Source: a virus | Virus record (IMG/VR): IMGVR_UViG_3300005529_000106 | Coordinates: 1-21,899 of that record | Strand: one strand, 5' to 3' | Length of the DNA stretch: 21,899 nucleotides | Part shown: positions 2,806 through 21,899 of the stretch, piece after piece | How the letters are laid out: the number at the start of each line of letters is the position of its first letter | How positions within the stretch are numbered: the stretch's first letter is position 1 | Translations under genes and position numbers: made by a program | Notes under the pieces: generated by a model | Database searches by the model: none | Seen by the model: the letters and a program-made list of their open reading frames with translations, nothing else | What the model was told of the DNA's origin: nothing

Positions 2806-3624
2806 ATGGACAACTACTACCTCGGACGAGAGAACCAATCCGGAATCGGAAGCAATAGCTTCGGGTTGACCGCAGCGGTCCCCAACCTCACCATCAGGGC
2901 CTCGTGGAGCGTGATCCAGCCCACTGCCGGTGGCCCGCTCGTCACTACGGCTATTGACGCAGGGATCGCGGCAGTCGGCGCCGGCAATCTCGCCTTGATA
3001 GTGGGCCTGAATGGCCCTGCACTGCCGTCATGGTACGGCGGCTCGAAAGTCGCAGGCTCGTTCCGTGGCCTCCCCGAAACGTATGCAGTGCCGTGGGATC
3101 CCACCTACCTGAGCAACGTCAAGTCCTTGGTAACAGCGCTCGGAGCCAAGTACGCAGGCGTCAAGAACCTGGTTCGCGTGTGCATGAACGCCGTCGCGAC
3201 GCAGACCAACGAAGTCTATCTCGACCAGTCGGATATTTCACTGGCGACCTGGAAAGCGGTTGGCTACTCGCAGAACAACGTCAAGACCGCATTCATGTCA
3301 AACCTCACTGCCCTCAGGGGTGCTTTCCCCACTCAGCTTGTCCAGATGGCGTGGCTGCCTGGCAACGCCGGATTTTCGTTTGATCCTAACGGAGCCACCC
3401 TGACCTCGTACCTGCGTGGCTACTTCGCCGCACTACCCAATGTCATCAACTCCAACGAGGGCGCGAATAGTGACTGGGTGATGCCTTTCTCACCGCCCGC
3501 GCCGTTTGGTTATCAGTCTTCAACCGTACTCGGTTCGCCTGGAATCAATGAGTCGTTGGCCCTCGCGGTCGCGGCAGGCGCTTCGTATTACGAAATTTAT
3601 CCCCCAGACGTACAGTACGTCTAA
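2806..3624 (+). CDS. TIM-barrel glycoside-hydrolase-like phage protein
   Basis: 272 residues, ATG preceded by AGGAG at a good distance and 8 nt after the previous stop. The pattern is that of a (beta/alpha)8 sugar hydrolase of the beta-galactosidase/GH5-like kind: ASWSVIQPTAGG followed by an (I)D..I helix (residues 32-53), LALIVGLNGPALPSWYGG (62-79), DPTYLSNVKSLVTALGAKYAG (98-118), a strand NLVRVCMNAV with a TNE motif (Glu136), and a final YYEIYPPDV strand (Glu263). Glu136 and either Glu218 or Glu263 are the best acid/base and nucleophile candidates, but I cannot confirm the pair. No signal peptide, so if active it is probably virion-borne or released at lysis. Possible role: degradation of a surface polysaccharide. 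Confidence 0.6.
   Translation: MDNYYLGRENQSGIGSNSFGLTAAVPNLTIRASWSVIQPTAGGPLVTTAIDAGIAAVGAGNLALIVGLNGPALPSWYGGSKVAGSFRGLPETYAVPWDPTYLSNVKSLVTALGAKYAGVKNLVRVCMNAVATQTNEVYLDQSDISLATWKAVGYSQNNVKTAFMSNLTALRGAFPTQLVQMAWLPGNAGFSFDPNGATLTSYLRGYFAALPNVINSNEGANSDWVMPFSPPAPFGYQSSTVLGSPGINESLALAVAAGASYYEIYPPDVQYV
3606..3622. repeat. Perfect inverted repeat AGACGTAC-A-GTACGTCT at a gene boundary
   Basis: An 8-bp arm, one central base and the perfect complementary arm. It covers the last codons of the glycoside-hydrolase-like gene and lies just before the AAGGAG ribosome site of the next gene. The arm AGACGTAC is the core of the GACAGACGTRCT element found four times elsewhere in the window. As RNA it can form a 6-bp stem with a 5-base loop; as DNA it could bind a dimeric regulator. 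Confidence 0.7.
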
Positions 3625-3633
3625 GGAGTATTT

Positions 3634-3861
3634 ATGGACGACGGACAGCATCGTGATAGTGGACGCGGAGCACCTGGCGAGAGCCGTGGACAGCGCTCAA
3701 AGATTGACCCTCGCGCCTATGTCGGCAATGCGAACGGCGCCGCGGCGAATATGCGGGTCGGAGCCACGCGACCGGACGCCGACATTTCTACCACGAGTCA
3801 TAGTGGCGGCGACGGCCCGAATCTGACACACAACCGCTACCGTTCGGATGATAAGCGCTAA
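3634..3861 (+). CDS. Small hydrophilic phage protein, unknown function
   Basis: 75 residues, very polar and rich in Asp, Arg, Gly and Ser, with no hydrophobic core long enough for a membrane segment. AAGGAG sits 8 nt before the ATG, one of the best ribosome sites in the window, and the stop shares a base with the next ATG (TAATG), so I take it as a real gene. The composition suggests a largely disordered protein. The central segment SKIDPRAYVGNANGAA is the most ordered-looking part. No family recognised. It follows the inverted repeat at 3606-3622 and opens the run of genes leading to the portal. Confidence 0.6.
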   Translation: MDDGQHRDSGRGAPGESRGQRSKIDPRAYVGNANGAAANMRVGATRPDADISTTSHSGGDGPNLTHNRYRSDDKR

Positions 3862-4133
3862 TGGCAAAATATCGCAAGAGACCAATAGTCATCGAGGCTC
3901 GACAATTCGAGACCAACAACGAAGCAGGCAGTCCGAACATGGACGCACTCGTTAATTGGATGAACCAGGGCAGCCCAACCTGTGTCGGGTGGCATAATGG
4001 GACCGACATTTTCATCCGCACTCTTGAGGGCGAAATGAGGGCCGAGGTCAAGGATTGGATCATTCGCGGTGTCAAGGGCGAATTTTATCCCTGCAAGCCG
4101 GACATCTTCGCCGCGACCTACGAGCCCGTATAG
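3861..4133 (+). CDS. Conserved phage protein of the KYRKRPVVIEA...GVKGEFYPCKPDIF type
   Basis: 90 residues. The start MAKYRKRPIVIEARQF and the end WIIRGVKGEFYPCKPDIFAATYEPV are hallmarks of a small protein found in very many tailed phages; I recognise the sequence pattern but know of no established function. The middle, about residues 30-60, contains a GT.I.I.TLEGEM strand pattern before a helix. It begins on the last base of the previous stop (TAATG) and ends 2 nt before the start I prefer for the portal gene. An unconnected longer reading frame of the portal overlaps its 3' end, but this gene's strong family match shows that the 3' region codes in this frame. Confidence 0.8.
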   Translation: MAKYRKRPIVIEARQFETNNEAGSPNMDALVNWMNQGSPTCVGWHNGTDIFIRTLEGEMRAEVKDWIIRGVKGEFYPCKPDIFAATYEPV

Positions 4134-4135
4134 TC

Positions 4136-5803
4136 TTGGCAGCCTCCTTAAATAAACTGGAGCGGGACGAAGCGCTCCAGCCGGAGAAACTGCTGAACCG
4201 CTTCCGCAAGCTGCTGGAGACGCGGCGCCTGTGGGAACCGACGTGGCAGGAGATTTCCGACTATGTATTGCCGCAGCGCAACGACGTGATCGTGCGCAAG
4301 TCACCAGGCCAGCGCCGGACAGAGAAACTGTTTGACAGCACGGCGATCTTCGCGGCGGAACTGCTGGCGGCGGCGATTCACGGCACACTTACCTCGTCGT
4401 ATATCCGCTGGTTCTCCCTGCAACTTGACGACGAGGAGTTGAACGAGGATCAGGAGATTGGTGAGTGGCTGGACGCCTGCGCGCAGCGTATGTACCTTGC
4501 CCTGAACCAGTCAAACTTCGCCCAGGAAGTACACGAGATGTATTCCAACCTCGTGCCCTTCGGCACTGGATATTTGCTGGAAGAAGAAAAGAAAGAGCGC
4601 AACGGCCAACTAATCTTTAAGTCGATTCGGCTTCAGGACGCGGCGCTCGCGGAAGATGCAGACGGGCGAGTTAATACTGTCTTTAGGTCAATCCCGATGA
4701 CGCGCGGCGCAATCTTGGAGAAGTGGCCGAATGCGAAGAAAGCGCAGGACGTAGACCTCGAATCCGACCCCGACATGATGGAAGAGGTTATCCACGCGGT
4801 CGTGCCGGCGTCTGACAAGCGTTTCAAGTTCGCCGGAGTGTACTTGCTATCCAAAAGTAAGTACCGTCTGGAAGTTAAAGGCTATTATGAGTTTCCCTTC
4901 ATGGTCCCGCGCTGGTCGAAGGAGACTGGCGAGACCTACGGGCGCGGGCGCGGCCACACTGCACTGCCGGACATCAAGACCTGCAACAAGATGGTCGAAA
5001 TGGAACTACGCGCCTTGGGTAAAGTTGTGAATCCCCCTGTCAAGGCGCGCGGCGGTGACGTGATCGGTCAGGTGAAGCTGAACGCGGGTGGCGTCTCGAC
5101 CGTCCGTGATATGGAAAGCCTGGCGCCGCTCTTCCCGAACTTCGACTATCAACCTGTCAACCTGAAGATTCAGGATTTGAAGCAGACGATCCGGCAGATG
5201 TTCTACAGCGATCAGTTGCAGCTTAGCAATCAGTCTCCGCAGATGACCGCGACCGAAGTGAACGTACGCTACGAGCAAATGCAGCGTATTCTCGGTCCGA
5301 CTCTGGGACGGCTCGAATCGGAACTGCTCGACCCGATGATTGCGCGCACGTTCAAGATCCTCCTGCGGGCCAACAAGTTGCCGCCGATACCGGCCAAGTT
5401 GCAGCAGGCACAGACGAGCCTGAACGTGAGATATGAGGGACCATTGGCCCGCTCGCAGCAATCGAGTGACGTGGCGGCTGTGCAGCAGCTAGAGCAGGTG
5501 CTGGAGCCGCTGATGCAGACTCACCCTGAGATTGCCGACGTGCTGGATCTTGACGGCTTGACGCGGCACACGGCGATTGTGCTTGGTATCCCCAAGAAGT
5601 ATGTCCGCGACGACCAGGGGGTTGGTGAAATTCGGCAGCAGCGCCAGCAAGCGCAGCAGGCCCAGGAGAACCAGCAGGCCACCTTGACCGCAGCGACGGC
5701 AGCCGGCAACGCGGCACCAATGTTGAAGGCTATGCACAGTGCGCCGGAGCAGGGGTCTATCGCTGACCAGATGCAGCAACAACAGAATCAAGGCCAACAG
5801 TGA
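4136..5803 (+). CDS. Head-tail connector (portal) protein
   Basis: Forms the dodecameric ring at the capsid vertex through which DNA is packaged and ejected. The N-terminus RFRKLLETRRLWEPTWQEISDYVLPQRND and the following KLFDSTAIFAAELLAAAIHGTLTSS segment match the podovirus head-to-tail connecting family (PF12236 type, T7 gp8-like). Length is 555 residues, normal for the family. The C-terminus (about residue 490 on) is Gln/Ala-rich and probably coiled or disordered, ending in QQQQNQGQQ. I chose the TTG at 4136, 3 nt after the previous stop, because family proteins begin close to this motif. An in-frame ATG at 4055 would add 27 residues (MDHSRCQGRILSLQ...) that lie wholly inside the preceding conserved gene and look unlike protein sequence. 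The ribosome site before the TTG is weak, so coupling is likely. Confidence 0.9.
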   Translation: MAASLNKLERDEALQPEKLLNRFRKLLETRRLWEPTWQEISDYVLPQRNDVIVRKSPGQRRTEKLFDSTAIFAAELLAAAIHGTLTSSYIRWFSLQLDDEELNEDQEIGEWLDACAQRMYLALNQSNFAQEVHEMYSNLVPFGTGYLLEEEKKERNGQLIFKSIRLQDAALAEDADGRVNTVFRSIPMTRGAILEKWPNAKKAQDVDLESDPDMMEEVIHAVVPASDKRFKFAGVYLLSKSKYRLEVKGYYEFPFMVPRWSKETGETYGRGRGHTALPDIKTCNKMVEMELRALGKVVNPPVKARGGDVIGQVKLNAGGVSTVRDMESLAPLFPNFDYQPVNLKIQDLKQTIRQMFYSDQLQLSNQSPQMTATEVNVRYEQMQRILGPTLGRLESELLDPMIARTFKILLRANKLPPIPAKLQQAQTSLNVRYEGPLARSQQSSDVAAVQQLEQVLEPLMQTHPEIADVLDLDGLTRHTAIVLGIPKKYVRDDQGVGEIRQQRQQAQQAQENQQATLTAATAAGNAAPMLKAMHSAPEQGSIADQMQQQQNQGQQ

Positions 5804-6108
5804 CCTATACGAAAGAGCAGAAAAAGACTCTCGCAGCGTACAAAGACGTGTTTACCAGTCCCAACGGCAAGTTGGTATTGGAAGACCTGCGACTAAACAA
5901 CGGTGATCGCCAGTCCTATGTGAAGGGCGATCCCTATCACACAGCGTTTAATGAAGGCCGAAGGGCAATTTATTTAGACATTCTGGCCTTGATCGAACAA
6001 GCAACCAAACTAGAGAGGAATTATGCCGGACGGGATTCTCGACCAACAATCACAAGCGACGCAGACGACTCCGCCTCCGACGACACAGACGGCGCCGGAG
6101 CCGAATAG
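5800..6108 (+). CDS. Bbp19-like phage protein
   Basis: 102 residues from GTG at 5800, overlapping the portal stop by 4 nt (GTGA), with a modest AAGG ribosome site. Residues about 10-65 match the small protein found beside portal genes in BPP-1-like phages (Bbp19 type): VFTSPNGKLVLEDLRL, then GDPYHTAFNEGRRAIYLDILALI. The function is not established; position suggests a head-assembly or packaging accessory. Residues 75-102 form an acidic Asp/Ser/Ala tail (DADDSASDDTDGAGAE) whose DNA is shared with the first 29 codons of the scaffold gene in another frame, an unusually long overlap of 86 nt for this operon. The tail may therefore be dispensable and shaped by the overlap. Confidence 0.75.
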   Translation: MTYTKEQKKTLAAYKDVFTSPNGKLVLEDLRLNNGDRQSYVKGDPYHTAFNEGRRAIYLDILALIEQATKLERNYAGRDSRPTITSDADDSASDDTDGAGAE

Positions 6109-6844
6109 CTGGCACGCCTCACTTCCTGAAGACCTGCGCAGTAATCAGTCGCTGGGCAAGTTCAAGGACGTAGGATCGCTCGCCAAGTCCTACGTCGAAC
6201 TGGAGAAGCATCAGGGCGGCGCTTTGCGCCTGCCTGGTGAAGACGCGAAGCCGGAAGACTGGGACGCCTTCTACAATAAGCTGGGGCGTCCAGAGTCACC
6301 GGACAAGTACGAAGTCAAGCGACCGGAGCTGGGCGAAGGTATCCAGTGGCCGGAGCAGACTGAGAAAAGCTTCCTGCAACAGGCACATAAGCTGGGCCTT
6401 AACTCCAAGCAGGCGCAGGGCTTGATGGACTGGTTCGCCGGCGATCTTAAAGGCGTCGTCGGGATGCAGGCCAGGCAGATGCAGGAGCAGCAGCAACAGC
6501 TCCAGGCCGACTGGGGCGACAAGTACCAGACCAACCTGAGTCTGGCGCAGCGCGCGGCGAAGGAATTTCTCACTGACCCTCAAGAAATTGAGTATTTCAA
6601 GCAGTCGGGCCTGCATCAGCATCCAGTGGTGATCAAGCTCTTCGCGCGGCTGGGCAAACAGCTCGAAGAGGGTAGTGGACTTGCAGCGGAAGGCGGTCAG
6701 TCAAGCAGCCAGAAGTCGGCGTTGGAAAAGATTGCGGAGATCCGCAACAACAAGAGCCATCCTTACCACAACTCCAATGCTGCGGGGCATAAGGAAGCAG
6801 TCGCGGAAATGAGCCGGCTCTATGATCAGGCGTACCCTGATTAG
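6023..6844 (+). CDS. Capsid assembly scaffolding protein
   Basis: 273 residues. GAGAGGAA sits just before the ATG and fixes the start inside the preceding gene. The N-terminal 30 residues are Gln/Thr/Pro-rich and disordered. Then NSWHASLPEDLRSNQSLGKFKDVGSLAKSYVELEKHQG (about 28-65) is the conserved opening of podovirus scaffolding proteins, followed by GRPESPDKYEVKRPEL. A Gln-rich stretch (about 150-170) leads into a helical, charged region, and the basic C-terminus (NNKSHPYHNSNAAGHKEAVAEMSRLYDQAYPD) is the type that binds capsid protein. It would guide procapsid assembly with the major capsid protein and portal and then leave or be incorporated. It ends 4 nt before the first GACAGACGTACT element. 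Confidence 0.85.
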   Translation: MPDGILDQQSQATQTTPPPTTQTAPEPNSWHASLPEDLRSNQSLGKFKDVGSLAKSYVELEKHQGGALRLPGEDAKPEDWDAFYNKLGRPESPDKYEVKRPELGEGIQWPEQTEKSFLQQAHKLGLNSKQAQGLMDWFAGDLKGVVGMQARQMQEQQQQLQADWGDKYQTNLSLAQRAAKEFLTDPQEIEYFKQSGLHQHPVVIKLFARLGKQLEEGSGLAAEGGQSSSQKSALEKIAEIRNNKSHPYHNSNAAGHKEAVAEMSRLYDQAYPD

Positions 6845-6846
6845 GC

Positions 6847-6875
6847 TTGACAGACGTACTGGCACGCGCTAAACT
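6847..6875 (+). promoter_or_regulatory. Element GACAGACGTACT, copy 1, with sigma70-like promoter fit
   Basis: The 12-mer is at 6849-6860, five bases after the scaffold stop. This copy alone also reads as a host-type promoter: TTGACA at 6847-6852, a 17-base spacer and TAAACT at 6870-6875. The other copies lack a matching -10 at that spacing, so the 12-mer itself, not sigma70 spacing, is what is conserved. It would drive the block leading to the major capsid gene. Confidence 0.6.
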
Positions 6876-6974
6876 GGGAATTGTATGGCAGCATCAACGA
6901 TAGGCGCAGCGGCAGCGGGTGCCGCAACTATGGCGGCAGTGGCCGGTCTAATCAACAGTCAAGGAGCATCAGGC

Positions 6975-7241
6975 ATGAGTATTTCCAGCATTTTCGGTAA
7001 TCTTTTTGGTTCGAGCACTCCGGCGCCCGTCGCGCCTCCCACCGGCAGTGTCGTCACCGGCAGCATCACCTTCACCGATGCGCAGCTCAAGACCCTGTTG
7101 AGCATGGGCGAGTCGGCCGGTTGGGTTGTGGTCCCGACGAGCCGCGCCGCGATCATGGCGATGGTCGAGCAGCTTCAGTTGATCGGTCTGCCGATTGACC
7201 AGGCGATTGTCGCGCAGTTGCTTTCGCAGGCCAAGTCGTAA
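6975..7241 (+). CDS. Small phage protein between scaffold and capsid genes, unknown function
   Basis: 88 residues from ATG 6975, chosen because AAGGAG lies at 6961-6966, 8 nt upstream. The same frame is open back to an ATG at 6885, which would add 30 Ala/Gly-rich residues (a possible membrane helix) but has only a weak GGGA site; the extra codons also have visibly lower third-position GC than the rest. If the element at 6847-6875 is a sigma70-type promoter, the transcript would begin almost at 6885, again favouring 6975. The protein has a Pro/Val linker near residues 15-25 and then a compact helical part (FTDAQLKTLLSMGESAGW; SRAAIMAMVEQLQLIGLPIDQAIVAQLLSQ). No family recognised; a head-associated role is guessed from position. 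Confidence 0.6.
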   Translation: MSISSIFGNLFGSSTPAPVAPPTGSVVTGSITFTDAQLKTLLSMGESAGWVVVPTSRAAIMAMVEQLQLIGLPIDQAIVAQLLSQAKS

Positions 7242-7275
7242 TGCGTCCGTTCGACTGGTAAATCAGAAACGGCGG

Positions 7276-7434
7276 ATGACTAATCCCCTCGACAACCCCA
7301 AGACCACCTCGCTTGGTCTTGGGGCGGTGATGATCGGCGTGTCTTGCTGGATGGGATGGCTCGACCATCAGTCCGGCCAGATCGCGATCTTCGCCCTTCT
7401 GGGCGCACTTGGCATCCTCGCAAAAGACGCTTAA
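7276..7434 (+). CDS. Small membrane protein with two helices, possibly holin-like
   Basis: 52 residues. Two hydrophobic segments, about 13-29 (LGLGAVMIGVSCWMGWL) and about 36-48 (IAIFALLGALGIL), are separated by the short turn DHQSGQ, and the protein ends in LAKDA. The ending resembles small phage membrane proteins whose last helix finishes in GLLxARD, often annotated as holins, but the likeness is weak. I use ATG 7276; the frame is open upstream to 7195, but those residues are Arg-rich and overlap the previous gene. The ribosome site is poor, so translation may depend on reinitiation. A lysis role is not certain because the other lysis-like genes lie 13 kb away; a membrane-bound assembly role is equally open. 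Confidence 0.5.
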   Translation: MTNPLDNPKTTSLGLGAVMIGVSCWMGWLDHQSGQIAIFALLGALGILAKDA

Positions 7435-7470
7435 CACTACATTTCTGTACACACTTCCTGGTACGTTTGT

Positions 7471-7478
7471 GATACAAT
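7471..7478 (+). promoter_or_regulatory. Extended -10 promoter upstream of the capsid gene
   Basis: TGATACAAT (7470-7478) matches an extended -10 (TGnTATAAT) in five of six hexamer positions. No good -35 is seen at 16-18 bases, which extended -10 promoters tolerate. The expected start is near 7485, about 120 nt before the capsid ATG. It lies in the longest non-coding gap of the late operon (7435-7606), where extra transcription would serve the protein needed in most copies. Confidence 0.55.
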
Positions 7479-7486
7479 AGGGGTAG

Positions 7487-7517
7487 GATAACCGCAGGGC
7501 GCGGCCCTTTAGTTATT
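7487..7517 (+). promoter_or_regulatory. Structured 5' leader hairpin of the capsid mRNA
   Basis: GATAAC (7487-7492) pairs with GTTATT (7512-7517), and inside it AGGGC (7496-7500) pairs with GCCCT (7504-7508) around a GCG loop. On read-through transcripts an outer GGGG (7480-7483)/CCCC (7520-7523) pairing extends it. From the predicted start near 7485 the hairpin would sit at the very 5' end of the RNA, as in stabilised messages. There is no U-run, so it is not a typical terminator. Confidence 0.55.
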
Positions 7518-7606
7518 AGCCCCGCATAAGCCACGATACGGCTAGGCTTTGGGCCTGCTCCGCGCAGACAACCCGCCGCAGAGAAAACAAACTTTGTGAG
7601 GTTGTC

Positions 7607-8533
7607 ATGTCATTCGAGATTACTCAAGGATTCGTTCAACAGTATCGCGATAATGTGATACATTTGGCGCAGCAGAAAGGTTCGCGCCTGCGTCAGACTG
7701 TCCGCGTTCAGCCGGACATTAAAGGCCAGAACTACTATTTCGAGCGTATCGGCGCAACGGCGGCGATTGCTCGTACAACCCGTCACGGCGACACACCGCT
7801 GATCAGCACGCCCCATTCACGGCGCCAGCTCACGATGCTGGACTATGAGTGGGCCGACCTGGTTGATAGCCAGGACCGCCTGCGTTTGCTTATCAACCCT
7901 GATAGCCAGTATGTAATCGCAGCGACCAATGCTTTTGGCCGCACGATGGACGACATTATCATTGCCGCCGCGACCGGCAACGCCTACAGCGGTCAGGACG
8001 GCGCGACTGCGGTTCCATTCCCCGTTTCAACTCAGGTTATCGGATCGAGCTACAACACCTCGAACGACGGTGGGCATATGTCGATTCCGAAACTCTTGAA
8101 GGTCAAGCAGATTTTTGATTTGGCGGACGTTGACCCTGACGAGCCGCGTTACGCAGTCGTCTCGCCTAAGCAGATCACCGACCTCTTGGAAACCACTCAG
8201 GTGACGAGTGCTGACTACAACGTGGTCAAGGCTTTGTCTGAGGGCGCAATCGATTCCTACCTGGGTTTTAAGTTCATTATGTCGAACCGCCTGGCAACCT
8301 GGGGCAGCAGCCAGACTGGGTTCGTGGGTTCGACAACCTCTGCGAGCGGGGACCGGCGCTGCCTGTTCTATACCACGAACGGCCTTGGTCTGGGTATCGC
8401 GGAAGATGTCACCACGCGCATGACTGAGCGGTCCGACAAGGGCTACGCAATGCAGATCTATATGCGCATGACGATGGGCGCGACCCGTATCGAAGACGTG
8501 AAAGTAGTCGAACTCGACTGCACAGAGTCGTAA
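7607..8533 (+). CDS. Major capsid protein
   Basis: 308 residues. It forms the icosahedral shell, working with the scaffold and portal encoded just upstream. The start MSFEITQGFVQQYRDNVIHLAQQKGSRLRQTVR and the stretches GQNYYFERIG, DYEWADLVDSQDRLRLLINPDSQYVIAATNAFGRTMDDIIIAAATG (about 85-128) and YLGFKFIMSNRL (about 218-229), followed by CLFYTTNGLGLGIAEDVTTRM, match the podovirus capsid group that includes BPP-1-like phages, with an HK97-type fold expected. Length is normal. GTGAGG lies about 7 nt before the ATG. It has its own promoter and leader hairpin in the 172-nt gap upstream, and is followed 4 nt after its stop by the second GACAGACGTACT element, consistent with separate control of this high-output gene. 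Confidence 0.9.
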   Translation: MSFEITQGFVQQYRDNVIHLAQQKGSRLRQTVRVQPDIKGQNYYFERIGATAAIARTTRHGDTPLISTPHSRRQLTMLDYEWADLVDSQDRLRLLINPDSQYVIAATNAFGRTMDDIIIAAATGNAYSGQDGATAVPFPVSTQVIGSSYNTSNDGGHMSIPKLLKVKQIFDLADVDPDEPRYAVVSPKQITDLLETTQVTSADYNVVKALSEGAIDSYLGFKFIMSNRLATWGSSQTGFVGSTTSASGDRRCLFYTTNGLGLGIAEDVTTRMTERSDKGYAMQIYMRMTMGATRIEDVKVVELDCTES

Positions 8534-8537
8534 GCCG

Positions 8538-8549
8538 GACAGACGTACT
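8538..8549 (+). promoter_or_regulatory. Element GACAGACGTACT, copy 2
   Basis: Lies in the 35-nt gap after the capsid gene. After the 12-mer come AGGACA and TAAGG, the last overlapping the ribosome site of the next gene (ATG at 8569). The core CAGACGTAC begins 29 nt before the ATG, the same distance as in the inverted-repeat copy at 3605. No sigma70 -10 at the usual spacing. Confidence 0.6.
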
Positions 8550-8568
8550 AGGACATAAGGAAACGTAG

Positions 8569-9087
8569 ATGGCAGTAGCATATACCTCAACGGAAATAGC
8601 GGCGGCGATTGGCACCTTTACTGGTGGACTGGGCGGCGCCCCTGACAAGAAGCGCTCCAGCGACTTTGGCAAGGCGCTGATTGTTGACTTCCACTTCACG
8701 CAGGGTGCGAGCCAGGGCAACGTCAACGACACCATTGACATCCTGTATGCGCCCCCGACCTACAAGCTCTATGACGGGCTGGTGGTGTGGACGGCGGGCG
8801 GCGCCGGCGTGCAGTTGGACATGGGTGTGGTTGACCCCAATAACGCATCCAACAACAACGCAACCAAGTTTATGAATGCGCAGAATATCGCCAACGCCGG
8901 CAGCCAGCGGCTGACCCTGCTTGGCGGGATTCAGATCGGCACGGACCCGCAGGGCGATCAAACCACCGGCAACGTACCGCCGAACTACGGTTCGGGGTTG
9001 GTCACAGTGCAGTTGAAAGTCGTCGGCGCGGGCCTCGCGGCTGCGGCGCAGATCAGCGGCTGGCTTCTGGTTGTACCTGGTTTCTAA
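8569..9087 (+). CDS. Probable capsid cement/decoration protein
   Basis: 172 residues, with TAAGGA about 8 nt before the ATG. It is beta-rich with a compact layout: a helical start (TSTEIAAAIGTFTGG), strands ALIVDFHFTQGAS and NDTIDILYAPPTYKLYDGLVVWT, an Asn/Ala-rich loop near residues 90-105, and closing strands GLVTVQLKVVGAGLAAAAQISGWLLVVPGF. No signal peptide. BPP-1 encodes a cement protein (Bbp16) directly after its capsid gene; this gene has the same position, a suitable size and a beta-type composition, so I infer a capsid-stabilising role. I see no diagnostic motif, so another virion protein remains possible. It is the first gene after the second repeated element and may have extra transcription from it. 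Confidence 0.55.
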   Translation: MAVAYTSTEIAAAIGTFTGGLGGAPDKKRSSDFGKALIVDFHFTQGASQGNVNDTIDILYAPPTYKLYDGLVVWTAGGAGVQLDMGVVDPNNASNNNATKFMNAQNIANAGSQRLTLLGGIQIGTDPQGDQTTGNVPPNYGSGLVTVQLKVVGAGLAAAAQISGWLLVVPGF

Positions 9088-9097
9088 AGGAACAAAC

Positions 9098-9577
9098 ATG
9101 AAAAAGATACTAAGCGCTATTCTAGTTCTTGGGTTGCTGGCCGGAGGCCGTTCCGCCTTCGCCCAGTCCGCCTATACTCCGTATTCGTCGTGGGCGTTTA
9201 TCTCGGCTTCGGCCGGCAACGCGCAGGGCGCCACGGCCTACCTGGAAGCGGGTAGCCTTGGCTCGACCGCCGCGCAGGGCGCGGCAGCCACGGCCTATAC
9301 CATTGCTCCGTCCAGCGGCACGGCGCACAGCCTTGAGTGTCGCAATGCGACGCCGGCGGACAACTCCACTGGTGTCTCGTACACCCTGTACGACGGCGGC
9401 AATGCAACCTCGTTGACTTGCAGCACGAATACCAGTGGCAGCACGACGCTCTGTTCGGATCTAACACATGTGGCGGGGATTGCCGCTGGCGACTTGATTT
9501 CGATCAAGGTAGTCAACGCCAATACCACGAACGCGAACGGCGTGACTGAGTGCAGCTTTATCGTCGATAACCACTAA
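9098..9577 (+). CDS. Secreted protein of unknown function with Sec signal peptide
   Basis: 159 residues from ATG 9098, chosen because AAAGGA precedes it at a suitable distance and because it gives a clean signal peptide, MKKILSAILVLGLLAGGRSAFA, cut before QSA. The in-frame TTG at 9071 would spoil the signal and overlap the previous gene. The mature part is beta-rich and Thr/Ser/Ala/Asn-rich, with four cysteines (in LECRN, LTCST, TLCSD and TECSF) that could pair in an oxidising compartment. It resembles the N-terminal secreted proteins of the window in composition but has no visible sequence repeat with them. No family recognised. It is the third exported protein in what is otherwise a virion operon, and the last gene before the strong hairpin at 9594. 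Confidence 0.65.
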   Translation: MKKILSAILVLGLLAGGRSAFAQSAYTPYSSWAFISASAGNAQGATAYLEAGSLGSTAAQGAAATAYTIAPSSGTAHSLECRNATPADNSTGVSYTLYDGGNATSLTCSTNTSGSTTLCSDLTHVAGIAAGDLISIKVVNANTTNANGVTECSFIVDNH

Positions 9578-9593
9578 TTCCTGCGTTTACGAG

Positions 9594-9620
9594 CGCCCCC
9601 TGACTCGACCTCAGGGGGCG
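9594..9620 (+). terminator. Strong GC hairpin between capsid and tail modules, no U-tract
   Basis: A perfect 10-bp stem, CGCCCCCTGA (9594-9603) against TCAGGGGGCG (9611-9620), with a 7-base loop. What follows is GCAGGTGTGTG, not a T-run, so a standard intrinsic terminator is unlikely; partial pausing, RNA processing or a stability block are options. It ends 12 nt before the tail adaptor ATG. T7 has its Tphi terminator at the same gene junction (10/11). Confidence 0.55.
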
Positions 9621-9632
9621 GCAGGTGTGTGA

Positions 9633-10358
9633 ATGAGTAATCCTAACCTGGGACCAGTAGACATCTGCAACGCCGCCCTGACCAAGCTCGGTGTCTCCCT
9701 AATAGTAAGTCTCTCCGACACGTCAACGCAGGGCCTTGCCTGCAACGCTATATATCCAATAGCGCGTGACGCCCTCCTGCGGTCCCATCCGTGGAACTTC
9801 GCCCGCGTCTGGGTGAATCTGGCACTCCTGTCCACGACGCCGCTTCAGCTTTCAATCAAACCCGATCCGCACTACCAGAGTGAGATTCTTTACACCGGCG
9901 CATATCAACTGCCGTCAGACTGCGTGCGCGTGTTCCGCGCGGCTCCGTTCAACTATAACTTCCGCATCGTCGGATCGCAGCTATACACTGACGCCCCGCC
10001 GCAGAATATCAGCACCAACCTATATGTCGGCTCACAGCCTGGTGTTGGCCTACCGCCGATCACCAATTCGTCGAATCCCAACACCTGTGGGATTGAGTAC
10101 ATCTCGCGCGACACTGACGTGAGCACCTACGATTCAATGTTTGTGGATGCTTTCGCCGCGAAGATTGCGATGGAGCTGGCGTGGCCGCTCACCGCTTCGC
10201 TGCAACTCAAGGCCGACCTTGAGAAGGAATTTACCGAGAAGTTAACTGAGGCTTGGTATGCTGATGGTGCGGAACAGTGGAACGATGATCTCTATAATAA
10301 CGTCCTTACTGACGTGCGCCAGACTATCGGCGCCCCGAACGGATCGGTGAGCTGGTGA
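9633..10358 (+). CDS. Tail tubular protein A (head-tail adaptor, T7 gp11-like)
   Basis: 241 residues. It forms the ring between portal and nozzle in short-tailed phages. The N-terminal block PVDICNAALTKLGVSLIVSLSDTSTQGLACNAIYPIARDALLRSHPWNFARVWVNLALL (about 8-68) is the signature of the family: INaALxxLG, an aYP.aRd.lLrxhPWnFA motif and a following strand. The C-terminal half has YQLPSDCVRVFRA, IEYISRDTDVSTYDSMFVDAFAAKIAMELAWPLT and a helical WYADGAEQWND segment, all usual. The ribosome site (AGGTG) is weak and lies just after the 10-bp hairpin, so the hairpin could also affect initiation. Its last 4 nt overlap the next gene's GTG. Confidence 0.9.
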   Translation: MSNPNLGPVDICNAALTKLGVSLIVSLSDTSTQGLACNAIYPIARDALLRSHPWNFARVWVNLALLSTTPLQLSIKPDPHYQSEILYTGAYQLPSDCVRVFRAAPFNYNFRIVGSQLYTDAPPQNISTNLYVGSQPGVGLPPITNSSNPNTCGIEYISRDTDVSTYDSMFVDAFAAKIAMELAWPLTASLQLKADLEKEFTEKLTEAWYADGAEQWNDDLYNNVLTDVRQTIGAPNGSVSW

Positions 10359-10582
10359 ACTGGCCGGTAGATCCTATAGGCGGTGACTCAGGTTGGTCTA
10401 ACTATTCCTTCTGGCAAGTGAGTTTTACCAGTCGTGAAGGCCAGCCAGGGACCGCTGTGATTTTTGCCGCGTCGGCTGCTGACGCCATCAACGCGATCAA
10501 CGCTGACAAGCAGTTCCAGATGATCTACGGACCCCTCACCGGAGTCTCGGCAACGTCCTATTCCGGCACAGGTACAGAATAA
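10355..10582 (+). CDS. Small phage protein between tail tubular A and B genes
   Basis: 75 residues from a GTG overlapping the adaptor stop (GTGA), ending one base into the next ATG (TAATG), so it is held tightly in the translation chain. Sequence MNWPVDPIGGDSGWSNYSFWQVSFTSREGQPGTAVIFAASAADAINAINADKQFQMIYGPLTG shows two or three strands and one helix (ADAINAINADK), a small soluble fold. No signal peptide or membrane segment. I do not recognise a named family. Genes of this size at this junction are common in related podoviruses and may be minor tail components or assembly chaperones, but that is inference. Confidence 0.65.
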   Translation: MNWPVDPIGGDSGWSNYSFWQVSFTSREGQPGTAVIFAASAADAINAINADKQFQMIYGPLTGVSATSYSGTGTE

Positions 10583-13569
10583 TGGCCCAGCGCACTCGTG
10601 AGATAATGACCAGTTGGGCCAACGGGGTGATCTCACCGCGTGTGATCGGGCGCACTGACCTCGACAAATACTACTCCAGCGCTGAAGTAATCCGCGACCT
10701 GATCGTCCTGCCGCAGGGTGGCCTGAAGCGGCGTCCTGGGACGGCTTACATTGCTGACGCGATGGGGCCGTCGCGCCTGATCCCGTTTATCTTCTCCCCG
10801 TCCGTCGCCTATATAATCGAGTTGGGGGCGATGGCGGCGCGGTTTTACTACGCCTACAACGACGCGGCCCAGTCACCAAATAATTCTCAGCCACCGTTTA
10901 CCTACGGCGCCCAGATTCAGACCGGCAACGTGCCGGCATGGAATCAGACGCTTGGCGGCACGACTTCTGACGGGTCACTGACTTGGACGAATCGCGGTCA
11001 GCGGTCCTATGCCACGCTCACCAGCGGCGGCGCAGCCACGGCTCTTTCATTACACACCTGTTGTATCGACAGCAACGGCAACATTCAGGAAGTTACGACC
11101 GCAGGAACTACTGCCAGTCAGGCATCAAGCTATGGCAACCGTCCACTGTGGAATACCGCCTTCGGCGGCACCACCACAGACGGCTCGGTGACATGGACGA
11201 ATCGCGGCGTCCCTTCGTGGTCAAGTACGACAACATTTGCCACCAACGCCCTCGTCTACACTGCCTACGGAATTCAACAGGTGACGGCTGGTGGAGGCGG
11301 CAACTCTGGCAGTGGCTCAGCGCCAATTCCCTTCCAGATCCCAACACCCTTTGACCCCTATCAGATGTCCCTCTGGGATGTTCAGTACGCCCAGCAGGGC
11401 GACATCATGTACCTGGTCCATCCGCTCTACCCAGTAACCAAAATAGAGCGGTTTGGCACTTCCGGCTCCGTGCCATCGAGCGCGGATAGGAACTGGCGCC
11501 TGGTGCAGCCTAACTTCTACTGCCCGCCGACTGACCCCAGCGATCAGGACGTGAGCGGCGGCACGATCACTGTGACGCCATCCGCGCAGACCGGAACGGG
11601 AGTGACCTTCACTGCCTCGTCGGCCTGCTTCCTGCCAGGCGACGTGGGGCGCTTTATCGTCTCCGATACACAAATCGCCTTAATCACTGCCTACATCAGC
11701 ACCACGGTAGTGACGTGCAATATCCTGACCTCATTTACCAGCACGTCTGCGATTGCGGCTGGCTCGTGGTTTCTGCGTGGTCCTTACTACACCTTCGCCG
11801 GCGTAGGCAGCGTCAGTGGTGGCAACTTCTTCTCTGATAACGGCTTCGGCGTCGGACAGACGGTTAGTATATTGAGCTATGCTAAGTACCCTGATAATGG
11901 CTCCACTGCTCCGGCTACGACTGATTGCTTCCGTAGCTCTGACGTGGGCCGCTATGTCAACGTGTCGGGTTGTATCGCAGTAATCACAGCATTTAACAAT
12001 GCACATAACGTCACGGCGCAATACCTGTCAGTACCGGAGCAAACCTTCACCGGCAGCGCAGGCGGTCTCCGCGTGTCGCCCTCTGTACCTGGGGCATGGA
12101 CAATGGAAGATCCGATCTGGACTGGCAGCCACGGCTATCCTGGCGCGGTCGCATTTTTCCAGGACCGGCTTTTCCTTGCCGCCACGCCGTATGCCCCGAA
12201 AACCGTCTGGGCCTCACGCACGGGCGACTATGAAAACTTTGCAAAGGGCACCAACGCGAGCGATGCATTGGATTTTACTATCTCAGGGGGCAAACTGGAC
12301 ACTATTCAGTGGCTGGCGGGCACCCCAGTGCAGGGAAGACTTGCTATAGAGACGGATGCAGCGGAATATATAGCGTATGCTGGCGGTCAGAATGGAGACA
12401 CCATCACCCCGACCAGCATCAACGTGCAGCCGAACTCGACCCAAGGCGGCACGACCCTGCCTCCAATTCTTGTGGATGCGGTCTTAATTTACGTGCAGCG
12501 CTACCGCACCAAGGTATATGAGTTTGCCTACAACATTTACCAGTCCAGTTTCGCCTCGAAAGACCTTGGCTTGTACGCTGAGCACCTGACCCACGCCGGA
12601 ATTAAGGAGATGGCCTTCCAGCCCAACCCGCACAAGATAATCTGGATGGTCACTGAGGACGGCCGGATGCTGGGCATGACCTACGACCGCACGCAGGATG
12701 TATGCGCCTGGCATGAGCACAGGACTGGCTATGCAGACAACGGCTACGGCGCGGTGGGCACTGGCGACAGCTTTCTGTCGGTCGCAGCGATACCAAATCC
12801 GGCGCCGCTGTTGCTCAGTTCCGCGAAGGACGGCAGCCTGGCCTACGTCGGCAATGGCGATCCGTCTTATTCCTCTGACCTTGTATGGACGACGGTGAAG
12901 CGCAAGCGCAACGGCAGCACGGTTTACACGGTCGAATTGATGGCGGATGGCTGGATGGCGGACTGTTGCAGTCAGTTTAACAGTTCTTCGTTCAGCTCCA
13001 GCGCCTTGACGACGACGATCACAGGAGCGCAGCTTGGCGGGCGCCTCGTGGTAGCTACTGGTCAGCCTGGGAACTCGTCAAAATCCTACTTCCCGTATGA
13101 CGCGCCGCTGGGATCGGGCACAGCCAACTCGTCCGGCCAGATCACCATATCCACTGATGTGGCACTAACCTCCCTGACCTGCTACGGGCTGCCCTTCCAG
13201 CCGACCCTGACCACGCGGCGGGTCGAGATCAAGGGCGCCCCGACTGTGCAGGGGCTGGTCAAGCGCTGGTCTGACCTCTGGATACGGGTCTATGAGACGC
13301 TGGGCCTGACGGTCAACGGCTCCGCAGTGCCCTTCTTCAACCTGGTTGGCACGTTGCCAGGCTCGCCTGCGGCGTCATTGGAGCAGGGTGGCACAACCTC
13401 AATCGGAGTTTCTGACACAATGTCGGATGAACTAGCGCCGCTCTCGACAGATGTGCGTGTACTTCAGTTCGGATATGATAGACTAGGACGTGTGACTATT
13501 ACGCAGCCACAACCACTGCCTGTGACCCTGCTTGCCATGTTCGGCACGCTCTTCATAGGTGATCAATGA
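10582..13569 (+). CDS. Tail tubular protein B (nozzle, T7 gp12-like)
   Basis: 995 residues, somewhat longer than T7 gp12. It forms the tail nozzle below the adaptor and carries fibre attachment. The N-terminus is diagnostic: SWANGVISPRVIGRTDLDKYYSSAEVIRDLIVLPQGGLKRRPGTAYIADA, then SRLIPFIFS and a YIIELGA strand. Residues 115-209 contain two copies of a 25-residue motif (W..LGGTTSDGS.TWTNRG type), and about 340-490 a second duplicated pattern built on DVGR (LPGDVGRFIV, RSSDVGRYVN); both are probably insertions in the nozzle tip. The centre has QDRLFLAATPYAPKTVWASRTGDYENF (about 530-555), another family hallmark. It begins on the last base of the previous stop and overlaps the next gene by 4 nt (ATGA). 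Confidence 0.9.
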   Translation: MAQRTREIMTSWANGVISPRVIGRTDLDKYYSSAEVIRDLIVLPQGGLKRRPGTAYIADAMGPSRLIPFIFSPSVAYIIELGAMAARFYYAYNDAAQSPNNSQPPFTYGAQIQTGNVPAWNQTLGGTTSDGSLTWTNRGQRSYATLTSGGAATALSLHTCCIDSNGNIQEVTTAGTTASQASSYGNRPLWNTAFGGTTTDGSVTWTNRGVPSWSSTTTFATNALVYTAYGIQQVTAGGGGNSGSGSAPIPFQIPTPFDPYQMSLWDVQYAQQGDIMYLVHPLYPVTKIERFGTSGSVPSSADRNWRLVQPNFYCPPTDPSDQDVSGGTITVTPSAQTGTGVTFTASSACFLPGDVGRFIVSDTQIALITAYISTTVVTCNILTSFTSTSAIAAGSWFLRGPYYTFAGVGSVSGGNFFSDNGFGVGQTVSILSYAKYPDNGSTAPATTDCFRSSDVGRYVNVSGCIAVITAFNNAHNVTAQYLSVPEQTFTGSAGGLRVSPSVPGAWTMEDPIWTGSHGYPGAVAFFQDRLFLAATPYAPKTVWASRTGDYENFAKGTNASDALDFTISGGKLDTIQWLAGTPVQGRLAIETDAAEYIAYAGGQNGDTITPTSINVQPNSTQGGTTLPPILVDAVLIYVQRYRTKVYEFAYNIYQSSFASKDLGLYAEHLTHAGIKEMAFQPNPHKIIWMVTEDGRMLGMTYDRTQDVCAWHEHRTGYADNGYGAVGTGDSFLSVAAIPNPAPLLLSSAKDGSLAYVGNGDPSYSSDLVWTTVKRKRNGSTVYTVELMADGWMADCCSQFNSSSFSSSALTTTITGAQLGGRLVVATGQPGNSSKSYFPYDAPLGSGTANSSGQITISTDVALTSLTCYGLPFQPTLTTRRVEIKGAPTVQGLVKRWSDLWIRVYETLGLTVNGSAVPFFNLVGTLPGSPAASLEQGGTTSIGVSDTMSDELAPLSTDVRVLQFGYDRLGRVTITQPQPLPVTLLAMFGTLFIGDQ
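10924..11208 (+). repeat. Duplicated 25-residue motif in the nozzle gene
   Basis: Copies at 10924-10998 and 11134-11208 are each 75 bp and encode 25-residue segments that agree at 18 positions, both containing GGTT.DGS.TWTNRG. At DNA level TGGACGAATCGCGG is identical in both. They are in frame and 210 bp apart, so this is an internal domain duplication and not a mobile element. The motif looks like a small beta-hairpin module of a surface-exposed insertion. Confidence 0.85.
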
Positions 13570-19036: not shown

Positions 19037-19048
19037 GACAGACGTGCT
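19037..19048 (+). promoter_or_regulatory. Element GACAGACGTGCT, copy 3, before the fibre gene
   Basis: Begins on the base after the gp16-like stop and ends 12 nt before the fibre ATG. One base differs from the other copies (A to G at position 10). It is followed by AGAATATAAG, much like copy 2 (AGGACATAAG). There is no ribosome site between it and the ATG. T7 has promoter phi17 at the same gene junction. Confidence 0.6.
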
Positions 19049-19060
19049 AGAATATAAGCT

Positions 19061-19570
19061 ATGAGCGTAACCAGCACATCAGTCAAGGTCCAGTACACCG
19101 GCGACGGCAGCACAACCAACTTCAGCTTCCCGTTTAATCTACTGACCGACGCCAACGCCCGCGTCGTAATCAACCCGACTGATGTAGTGGTCTACTTCGG
19201 CGCGAGCGGCAGTGAGGTTGTCCAGTCTACCTCCAGCTATACGGTCAATGGCCCCAGCGGGTCGCCGGCCAACACGGTAATTTTTAATTCGGCGCCTGCG
19301 AGCGGTACGGTCATCACCATCTACCGGACCAAGGCCCTAACCCAGGCCGGCACCTGGACGGACGGCCAGCCCTTCTCAGCGTCGCAATTCCAGCTCGCCC
19401 TCGACAAGCTCACCATGCTGGTGCAGCAGCTCCAGGAACAGCTCAACCGCTCGATTCAGCTCTACCCTGCCACGACGATCAGCGGTCCGGTCAGGATGCC
19501 TGACCTTGTGGCTAACAACTACCTGAAGGTCAGCAGCGACGGCACGAAGCTGATTATGAGCGCCACCTAA
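19061..19570 (+). CDS. T7-type tail fibre N-terminal (adaptor) protein
   Basis: 169 residues. The whole length corresponds to the N-terminal domain that fastens T7 gp17-type fibres to the tail (PF03906 type): VQYTGDGSTTNFSFPFNLLTDANARVVI (about 9-38), VIFNSAPASGTVITIYRTKALTQAGTWTDGQPFSASQFQLALDKLTMLVQQLQEQLNRSI (about 73-133). The shaft and receptor-binding parts are missing; the frame simply ends after a short LKVSSDGTKLIMSAT motif, itself typical of the junction to a fibre shaft. No ribosome site is visible before the ATG: the 24 bases upstream are the third repeated element plus a short AT-rich stretch. The receptor-binding part must be supplied by another gene, most simply the next one. 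Confidence 0.85.
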   Translation: MSVTSTSVKVQYTGDGSTTNFSFPFNLLTDANARVVINPTDVVVYFGASGSEVVQSTSSYTVNGPSGSPANTVIFNSAPASGTVITIYRTKALTQAGTWTDGQPFSASQFQLALDKLTMLVQQLQEQLNRSIQLYPATTISGPVRMPDLVANNYLKVSSDGTKLIMSAT

Positions 19571-20849: not shown

Positions 20850-20868
20850 CTTGGACTAAGATAGCCGT

Positions 20869-20880
20869 GACAGACGTACT
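20869..20880 (+). promoter_or_regulatory. Element GACAGACGTACT, copy 4, after the lysis genes
   Basis: Lies 19 nt after the endolysin stop in the 104-nt gap between convergent gene sets (20850-20953). No credible + strand gene follows; the only open frame downstream is antisense to the HNH gene and has no ribosome site. If the element is a promoter, its transcript would run antisense to the HNH and integrase genes. No terminator hairpin was seen in the gap. Confidence 0.55.
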
Positions 20881-20953
20881 TGAGCGGGAGTAAAGCGACT
20901 GTAAGGATTGGGATCTCTGACTCTGTGGATCATCTACATCCTTTGGCATACGG

Positions 20954-21418
20954 CTACATACGACCATTAAGTGCTGTGAGTTTCAAGCCCGCTCGCCGTT
21001 GTTTAGATCTGAGAGAAGCATTATTTCGGCAGATCTTACACTCTCGGCTTCTTCTTTCTGGTCTTATGTATAAGTTTTCGCCAGATAATGGATGCCCATT
21101 GAGGCAGGTTGTTGTACTGCGGCGGGCTTTGTGGTAGACAGAAAGGCTGCTTCTCTTGATGTTTTCTTCTTTAGTTACAGCTTCAAGGTGATCTGGATTT
21201 ACGCAGGCTCTGTTCGTACATAGGTGGTCTATCTCAAACCCATTTCTTACAGGTCCAATCCAGATGATATGCGACCACTGATGTGCTTTCCTTCTGGACT
21301 TACCTGCCATGAACTTACCATACCCATCAGACAAAGAGCCTTTCCACGTCCAACACCCACCCTCAGTGAAAGTGATCCAAGATAGGAATCTATTCAAATC
21401 ATCTTCTGTGAAATGCAC
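20954..21418 (-). CDS. HNH homing endonuclease
   Basis: 154 residues from a GTG at 21418, supported by GGAG 9 nt upstream on the minus strand. The core EIDHLCTNRACVNPDHLEAVTKEENIKRS (62-90) is the HNH_3-type zinc-bound active site: Asp64-His65, Asn74, His77, with Cys67 and Cys72. GCWTWKG (21-27) and DGYGKF earlier are the usual N-terminal motif. A second metal site follows: CLNGHPL (Cys105, His109) and CKIC (Cys127, Cys130), then a basic tail likely to grip DNA. It would cut a specific DNA site to spread itself. Base composition is visibly lower in GC than the phage genes (about 42% in 21001-21060), consistent with later acquisition. Its first 20 nt overlap the integrase 3' end. Confidence 0.9.
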   Translation of the reverse strand: MHFTEDDLNRFLSWITFTEGGCWTWKGSLSDGYGKFMAGKSRRKAHQWSHIIWIGPVRNGFEIDHLCTNRACVNPDHLEAVTKEENIKRSSLSVYHKARRSTTTCLNGHPLSGENLYIRPERRSRECKICRNNASLRSKQRRAGLKLTALNGRM

Positions 21419-21899
21419 TCAGCTTTTCTCCAGCCTCACGGAGCATAACCTCGTCCACAATTGCGTAACGACGATATACACTCTCGGTCAGGTGTCCGGT
21501 CATTTTCATGGCGGCTGAACGTGATATTCCTGAGCGCTCCAGGTTTCTGACGGCAGTGCGGCGAAAGTCATGGACGAGGCGCCCAGGCAGTCCTGCCTTC
21601 TCACAGGCCGTCGCCCAACAGCGCCGGTAGGAGCGGATGCGATGGCCGTGGCGATGGAACAGGTAGGGGATGATTACACCGTCGCGCATCTCCTGACGAC
21701 GGGTCGCGGCCAGGACTTCCTCAAGTACGGCGCGCAGTTCAGGTATGATCGGGAACATCCGGCCCTGCTTGTTTTTCGTCTCGTTTGGGTCAAGCCGCAG
21801 CCAGCCGGCCTGAAGATCGACGTGGCTCTTTAGGCGAGTTAGGATCTCTGACTGCGTGCGCCAGCCGGTGATGTAGGCCACGCGCATGACCGGCTTCAT
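21399..21899 (-). CDS. Tyrosine recombinase (phage integrase), C-terminal catalytic domain, cut by window edge
   Basis: 166 residues are visible; the N-terminal arm- and core-binding parts lie beyond the right edge. All catalytic landmarks are present, counted from the first visible Met: Arg14 (GWRTQSE), a beta-hairpin Lys in ETKNKQGRMFPI (Lys42 or Lys44), His110-x-x-Arg113 (HDFRR), His136 (GHLTES) and Tyr145 (RRYAIVDE), nine residues after the last His as is usual. It would insert and excise the phage at att sites, so a temperate lifestyle is likely. It is transcribed against the late operon. The gene ends 21 residues past the nucleophile and overlaps the HNH start, and the C-terminus appears intact. 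The attachment site was not identified. Confidence 0.9.
   Translation of the reverse strand: MKPVMRVAYITGWRTQSEILTRLKSHVDLQAGWLRLDPNETKNKQGRMFPIIPELRAVLEEVLAATRRQEMRDGVIIPYLFHRHGHRIRSYRRCWATACEKAGLPGRLVHDFRRTAVRNLERSGISRSAAMKMTGHLTESVYRRYAIVDEVMLREAGEKLSAFHRR

Follow-up and report, generated by a model that had tools for sequence, protein, structure and literature searches.

Oriented short repeats in the late-gene gaps of an HTVC010P-like podophage fragment with an integrase, beside a capsid-to-tail terminator slot in its clade

The window analyzed here is IMG/VR virus record IMGVR_UViG_3300005529_000106 over its whole length of 21,899 bases, a stretch of podophage DNA that carries a 12-bp repeat, GACAGACGTRCT (the box), at four places (6849, 8538, 19037 and 20869), each time on the coding strand and in a gap between genes. 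We tentatively read the boxes as operator- or stoperator-like sites, placing this reading ahead of a promoter reading as a slightly better fit, and we found that the interval between the capsid and gp11-like genes, in which the window has a hairpin (9594-9620), is the terminator slot of its clade. A wider proposal, which we regard as possible and hold less firmly, is late-gene silencing in an integrase-carrying HTVC010P-like podophage by distributed, short, oriented repressor sites (stoperator-like, outside the actinobacteriophages) with a palindromic double site at their head; next to them the capsid/tail terminator slot of the whole clade would copy T7 Tphi, through either convergence or shared ancestry, although no RNA polymerase (RNAP) of the clade's own was seen. 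The window is a fragment, since its first base lies inside a coding frame and its 3' edge inside the integrase gene, and the early region is not in the record.

A preliminary description of this DNA had pointed out repeated boxes and a hairpin arranged as in T7, and both are present, the boxes in four gaps and the hairpin exactly at 9594-9620. The box reads GACAGACGTACT without change at 6849, 8538 and 20869, while the copy at 19037 differs at one position (GACAGACGTGCT); all four are on the + strand. It was the sole dispersed 12-mer of the window with at least three exact copies, every copy being intergenic, compared to an expected number of 0.0025 for the exact 12-mer. The pattern GACAGACGTRCTNG with one mismatch allowed matched four times forward, with no reverse match and no match to the reversed control. 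Noncoding sequence makes up only 524 bases of 201-21899 (2.4%) once the gene list is corrected for genes 3634-3861 and 7276-7434, and four of the nine gaps of at least 10 bases contain a box:

6849-6862, + strand: box 1, GACAGACGTACTGG, between the scaffold gene and two small genes that precede the capsid gene
8538-8551, + strand: box 2, GACAGACGTACTAG, between the capsid gene and gene 8569-9087
19037-19050, + strand: box 3, GACAGACGTGCTAG, in a 24-nt gap between the gp16-like and gp17-like fibre genes
20869-20882, + strand: box 4, GACAGACGTACTTG, 3' of the last late gene, facing the convergent HNH endonuclease and integrase genes

A gap-motif test placed the motif in four gaps compared to a null maximum of two in 100 shuffles. 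The same test was run on 62 sequences of at least 10 kb, of which 56 had enough gaps and six were dropped; besides the window only one other sequence gave 0 of 100 shuffles, and its word was Shine-Dalgarno-like. The T7 late block behaved similarly, with its promoter in six gaps versus a null maximum of two. When a matrix was built leaving out one box at a time, each of the four boxes ranked 5 or 6, that is, first or second after the four training sites. Conservation extends over 12-13 bp, near-perfectly over 12 bp in four contexts with different flanks. At three mismatches there were 20 matches versus a shuffle mean of 14.1, a count reached by 8 of 100 shuffles and so no clear excess, and the signal is therefore confined to the near-exact set. 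The arrangement given in the preliminary description (boxes before the capsid block, before the fibre gene and after the lysis genes) agrees with the boxes at 6849, 19037 and 20869; however, the major capsid gene (7607) lies 758 nt downstream of box 1, beyond two small genes, the box at 8538 had been omitted, and no coordinates had been given for the fibre and lysis boxes. Box 3 also holds the start of TGCTAGAAT (19045). As an observation on box 4, a promoter in the region 20850-20953 would produce RNA antisense to the HNH and integrase genes, while a stop site there would shield both from late read-through.

We found a probable fifth site, judged by its sequence, in the only perfect palindrome of the window (arms of at least 8 bp, spacer 0-2), AGACGTACAGTACGTCT:

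3606-3622, no strand assigned: palindrome AGACGTAC-A-GTACGTCT, two box cores, spanning the stop codon of gene 2806-3624

The core AGACGTAC occurs five times in the window versus 0.35 expected, in three of the boxes and in both arms of the palindrome, which lies 31 nt (in box register) before gene 3634-3861. With the palindrome counted, four of the five sites start 31, 36, 31 and 24 nt ahead of a start codon; box 4 is the exception, with no called gene starting shortly downstream of it on the + strand. The core shared with the palindrome would be expected of a protein that dimerizes more than of a single-subunit polymerase.

The operator reading draws on the form and placement of the boxes, which are about 13 bp long and asymmetric and lie in gaps and on the coding strand in four of four cases; short, asymmetric gap repeats that keep one orientation with transcription are a feature of L5-type stoperator systems. 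It also draws on the integrase in the window, on the lack of any RNAP found in the clade and on the absence of RNA folding at the boxes. We propose that the late operon is probably transcribed by host RNAP under two separate controls, the hairpin and the boxes. The boxes would be recognition sites at the borders of units, oriented with transcription, for a phage-encoded DNA-binding protein, the palindrome at 3606-3622 would be a paired site heading the portal unit, and, given the integrase, the likeliest protein would be a repressor that silences late genes at many short sites, as at stoperators, where a cognate repressor binds and stops elongation.

Several observations weigh against this picture. 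No gene for a repressor or other regulator was recognized in the window, whose early region is missing, and the 24-36 nt between box and start codon at four of five sites would also suit promoters or translation elements. The palindrome ranks only 141 of 43,764 positions by the four-box matrix and is thus not recovered, lacks the GAC prefix of the boxes and lies partly in coding sequence. L5 has more than 20 stoperators per genome as described (PMC9283540), versus four or five sites in the 22 kb of the window. Among 170 relatives (2.13 Mb), CAGACGTRCT gave three matches versus 5.2 expected, and no relative shows the box. Lastly, the hairpin has no U tract (the next bases are GCAGGTGTG), and our detector calls no terminator between the capsid and gp11-like genes of the window.

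Since the box was found in no relative, we infer its function. Pattern scans of viral contigs in IMG/VR returned 5, 1 and 19 stretches in three scans. None of the 20 loci of the latter two encodes a relative of the window's query proteins; the five loci of the first were examined for the box only. Wherever the box 12-mer turned up in these stretches, it was present as a single copy. A blastn search of phage records with the box gave one chance match. As far as searched, the array is private to the lineage of the window, which fits any fast-evolving recognition pair, and its absence from relatives does not discriminate between the readings.

We then weighed the boxes as late promoters for a phage-encoded or phage-modified host polymerase, the preliminary description having called them promoter-like and drawn a parallel to T7 late control. 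Transcripts would start just downstream with leaders of about 11-23 nt, and boxes and hairpin together would form a T7-like plan. The T7 array behaves alike in the gap-motif test, the boxes at the right end and ahead of the capsid unit and of gp17 correspond to phiOR, phi10 and phi17, respectively, and box 4, like phiOR, has no nearby gene; the T7-like phage LUZ100 is described as combining such a plan with an integrase (PMC10134795). The four boxes match three of the six T7 late promoter slots (p=0.046 over 22 junctions, or p=0.009 with the fifth site counted), a mapping made after the boxes were seen; however, over the eight gaps of at least 20 nt alone the match weakens to p=0.24. Further against promoters, none of the 63 virus records searched, of which the window is one, had a match to the domain PF00940 (single-subunit RNA polymerase). 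These comprise 24 records (the window among them, searched with no positive control), 37 from IMG/VR and two complete phages, and for the latter 39 T7 served as control and matched at 9.9e-110; ten of the 63 are at least 33 kb, most others are fragments, and the window lacks its early region. Of 12 bacterial genomes, one, a Bermanella metagenome-assembled genome, had PF00940 matches, and those stretches share only a run of N with the capsid locus. The relative Skadi-1 is reported to lack a viral RNAP (PMC10504331).

The sequence of the boxes also argues against T7-type promoters. The six T7 late promoters share 23 identical bp compared to 12-13 bp for the boxes, and a T7-type promoter has an AT-rich melting part. 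No repeat of the promoter type, 17-23 bp with such a part, was found in the boxes, and the positions after the box core vary. With the probable fifth site palindromic as well, a reading of the boxes as T7-type late promoters is not supported, and the promoter reading in its broader form is in our view a somewhat unlikely alternative to operator-like sites.

Host-type promoters likewise fail to explain the boxes as a set. TTGACA-17-TAAACT at 6847-6875 overlaps box 1 and is the sole 10/12 sigma-70 match of the window, where sigma-70 matches are not above chance (five versus 7.6 expected). At equal spacing boxes 2-4 present GGAAAC, GCTATG and GTAAAG, so the fit is to box 1 only, and in box 3 the transcription start would fall inside its gene; because no sigma-70 pattern fits all boxes, we rejected this common explanation. 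Apart from the boxes, one site is a candidate host-RNAP promoter for the capsid gene:

7470-7478, + strand: TGATACAAT, resembling an extended -10 element, 137 nt ahead of the capsid gene and within its leader of 172 nt

TGNTANAAT has just two + strand copies, both in gaps, one at 7470 and the other at 19045, where it overlaps box 3, and it was present in 15 of 2000 shuffles of the capsid leader. Relatives showed no enrichment of sigma-70 sites ahead of the capsid gene (p<=0.05 for 4 of 72 gaps, close to the number given by chance), in a set that excludes the window, whose scaffold-to-capsid gap is over 600 nt. In these 72 gaps Vibrio phage H3 alone had a near-consensus promoter before the capsid gene.

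Two further explanations for the boxes seem improbable to us. In the first, the boxes would be start-associated elements acting on mRNA translation or stability, as has been suggested for SAS in Cluster K mycobacteriophages; the distances of 31, 36, 31 and 24 nt from box start to start codon would suit this, and Cluster K phages are described as having 13-bp repeats at translation starts (PMC3203893). However, box 4 precedes no called gene and the boxes contain no Shine-Dalgarno sequence (AGGAG core), unlike SAS, which are repeats placed at the ribosome-binding site with a Shine-Dalgarno core. There is also no RNA structure at the boxes (folding z of 0.24, 0.40 and -0.01 for boxes 1-3 and +1.45 for the gap of box 4). 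The second, which we rate marginally lower still, takes the boxes as junction repeats left by modular phage exchange or as sites of the neighbouring HNH endonuclease, with no regulatory role. Box 1 adjoins two small genes without family match and the HNH gene ends near box 4, which would suit this explanation, but the fixed orientation, the similar spacing to start codons and the near-perfect conservation in four differently flanked contexts speak against it.

The second proposed late-control element of the window is a stem-loop in the intergenic stretch that separates the capsid block from the gp11-like gene:

9594-9620, + strand: hairpin of 10 Watson-Crick pairs with a 7-nt loop

Its folding was stronger than in shuffles (z of -2.73 and -3.36 in two frames), and the window has two perfect hairpins of at least 10 bp versus a shuffle mean of 0.14. 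No Rfam match was found in the window. With no U tract directly 3', the hairpin fails as an intrinsic terminator by two rules. It is thus likelier to attenuate transcription in part, to serve at an RNA 3' end or in processing, or to assist factor-dependent termination than to be a complete intrinsic terminator. Possible effects are weaker transcription, an RNA end at this place or an influence on gp11 translation, and the hairpin would most likely lower tail mRNA or protein relative to capsid, an effect that we read from its slot. The claim in the preliminary description that capsid would be boosted over tail proteins is plausible to this extent, as intrinsic terminators occupy the slot in 39 of 86 relatives, and is weakened by the missing U tract.

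An action on translation is an unlikely alternative. In this reading the 3' arm of the hairpin, which overlaps the sequence just ahead of the gp11 gene, would pair instead with the first part of the gp11 coding sequence and so tune tail translation rather than transcription. The hairpin ends 12 nt before the gp11 ATG, and an alternative fold at 9605-9680 (-32.1 kcal/mol, z = -3.05), which excludes the hairpin, competes with it in 9585-9685. However, with more flank (9560-9700) the hairpin wins, the pairing is likely due to chance because the partner is gp11 coding sequence, and the same slot in relatives holds U-tract terminators. As a separate observation, the longest perfect hairpin in the window (11 bp with a 7-nt loop, 7296-7324) lies near the start of the small gene 7276-7434, and its loop CCTCGCT shares CTCG with the loop ACTCGAC at 9594-9620.

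To place the hairpin we examined 170 relatives together with the window; 137 had capsid and gp11 genes no more than 6 kb apart (34 were dropped), and dereplication at 90% capsid identity left 87, the window among them. U-tract terminators were found in the capsid-to-gp11 interval of 39 of the 87 (39 of 86 without the window), compared to 3 of 69 portal-to-scaffold intervals (Fisher p=2e-9), 11 of 79 scaffold-to-capsid intervals (p=2e-5), 1 of 74 gp11-to-gp12 intervals (p=6e-12) and 0-5% inside the five genes; these p values are guides, as the loci are related and the intervals differ in length. Per kb, the slot held 0.65 terminators versus 0.10, 0.43 and 0.08 in the three other intervals, respectively, so that the scaffold-to-capsid interval is not far behind per base, and more than half of the relatives had no terminator detected in the slot. 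Hairpins of at least 9 bp without a U tract occurred in the slot of 13 of 87 with the window, or 12 of 86 compared to 4 of 220 intervals elsewhere. HTVC010P has AGGTGGGGAGTAATCCCCACCT followed by TTTT at 7273-7294, and a terminator follows the capsid block in both HTVC010P and H3. The capsid-to-gp11 interval is thus the terminator slot of the clade, and the analogy of the window's hairpin to Tphi, as drawn in the preliminary description, holds by position, the slot being that of Tphi in the T7 annotation.

These counts come from a detector that finds only Tphi in T7 22000-25200 and was kept for that reason, its thresholds having been set after a first folding detector was seen. That first detector was discarded as unspecific, with matches in the slot of 57 of 87 but also within the capsid gene in 40 of 87, and two surplus matches in T7. 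A perfect-stem detector (31 of 87), which was not run on T7 and a relative of which missed Tphi, was set aside too. For comparison, the authors of the VP2-like phage OVC8 predicted eight rho-independent terminators (PMC4802629), and those of Skadi-1 report no identifiable terminators (PMC10504331). In H3, we also observed the palindrome TGTCGACGTCGACA at eight places (1099, 16860, 21827, 24661, 29367, 33257, 34782 and 36003), some with flanks extending to GGGTGTCGACGTCGACACCC; these are possibly terminators.

The clade was assigned from the genes of the window. In a family search the portal, scaffold, capsid, gp11-like and gp12-like proteins matched phage families in a T7-like order:

4103-5803, + strand: portal (head-tail adaptor, phrog_332), family match on open reading frame 4055-5803
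6023-6844, + strand: scaffold-like gene (phrog_3742), family match
7607-8533, + strand: major capsid protein (phrog_3437), HTVC010P type, family match and relatives
8569-9087, + strand: virion structural protein, weak phrog_8455 match, homologues in 60 of 171 sequences
9633-10358, + strand: gp11-like tail tubular protein A (phrog_394), family match
10582-13569, + strand: gp12-like tail protein (phrog_376), family match
19061-19570, + strand: gp17-like fibre N-terminal domain (Phage_T7_tail), family match
20954-21418, - strand: HNH endonuclease
21399-21899, - strand: tyrosine-type phage integrase, gene cut at the window end

Among named phages the capsid protein is closest to HTVC010P-type pelagiphages, at 50.6% identity and below (136 records), and the portal to the HTVC010P-type group and VP2/VP5-like Vibrio phages (232 records). 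Homologues of capsid, portal, gp11 and gp12 and their order place the window in the HTVC010P-like podophage clade, with a capsid family that differs from that of T7 as far as family and relative matches show. No relative emerged when viral contigs were scanned with the portal and the gp12-like and gp16-like proteins. In a search for the host, a first genome scan with the capsid protein likewise gave no relative, a genome scan with a capsid alignment returned 65 loci, none closer than 52%, and no host was assigned. Apart from these genes, we observed signal-peptide-like N-termini (by eye) in genes 201-818, 815-2797 and 9098-9577, which have no family match, TPTA repeats in the product of gene 815-2797, encoded by a tandem array of 12-bp units (about 1510-1610), and a 74-nt direct repeat in the gp12-like gene (10924-10997 and 11134-11207, 70% identical) that represents a duplicated protein segment.

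The preliminary description considered a T7-like plan beside an integrase to be noteworthy. The layout as such is not surprising, because the plan of LUZ100 is already published (PMC10134795) and an integrase is annotated next to the late block of HTVC028P. In our literature searches we met neither a clade-wide capsid/gp11 terminator slot nor a box array with palindrome in the HTVC010P-type group, and found no paper combining 'stoperator' and 'podovirus'. If the slot result holds, T7-style control of capsid over tail is not tied to a phage RNAP and is part of a late module found more widely in podophages. Should the boxes prove to be silencing sites, this distributed mode of control would reach a podophage group without an RNAP, and T1-like phages have similar unexplained repeats.

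Compared to known systems, the window is closest in its genes to HTVC010P-type pelagiphages and VP2/VP5-like Vibrio phages, with which it shares homologues of capsid, portal, gp11 and gp12 and their order, although the box occurs in none of those tested; HTVC028P has an integrase annotated beside its HTVC010P-type late block, whereas none is annotated in HTVC010P. With T7, whose late elements are phi6.5, phi9, phi10, Tphi, phi13, phi17 and phiOR, it shares a same-strand repeat that stands at the right end and ahead of both the capsid unit and gp17, and a hairpin between the capsid block and gene 11, the Tphi slot. It differs in that no RNAP was found in its clade, in the length of the repeat (12-13 versus 23 bp), in an extra box after the capsid gene with none before the scaffold or gp13/14-like genes, and in a hairpin that lacks a U tract.

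LUZ100, a T7-like Pseudomonas phage with temperate features, is described as having an integrase, a local capsid promoter and a strong terminator directly after the capsid gene (PMC10134795), and so resembles the window in pairing an integrase with local capsid control; however, it belongs to the autographiviruses, encodes an RNAP and has a promoter motif of 17 bp derived from transcript mapping (PMC10134795). The T1-like phages TLS and Stevie have gap repeats in the direction of transcription, described as of unknown function, and, as in the window, the TLS repeats lie upstream of start codons in a phage described as having no RNAP or sigma gene; these repeats differ in being 21-22 bp long and present in 16-18 copies, in siphophages termed lytic or virulent (PMC11447400, PMC4319613). 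The likeness to the L5-type stoperators of Cluster A mycobacteriophages is drawn from their description, and a difference is that one probable site of the window is palindromic. L5 stoperators are described as asymmetric 13-mers in short intergenic spaces whose orientation follows transcription (PMC9283540, PMC6550527), and the boxes share with these sites of a temperate phage their length of about 13 bp, their asymmetry, their placement in short gaps and their orientation with transcription.

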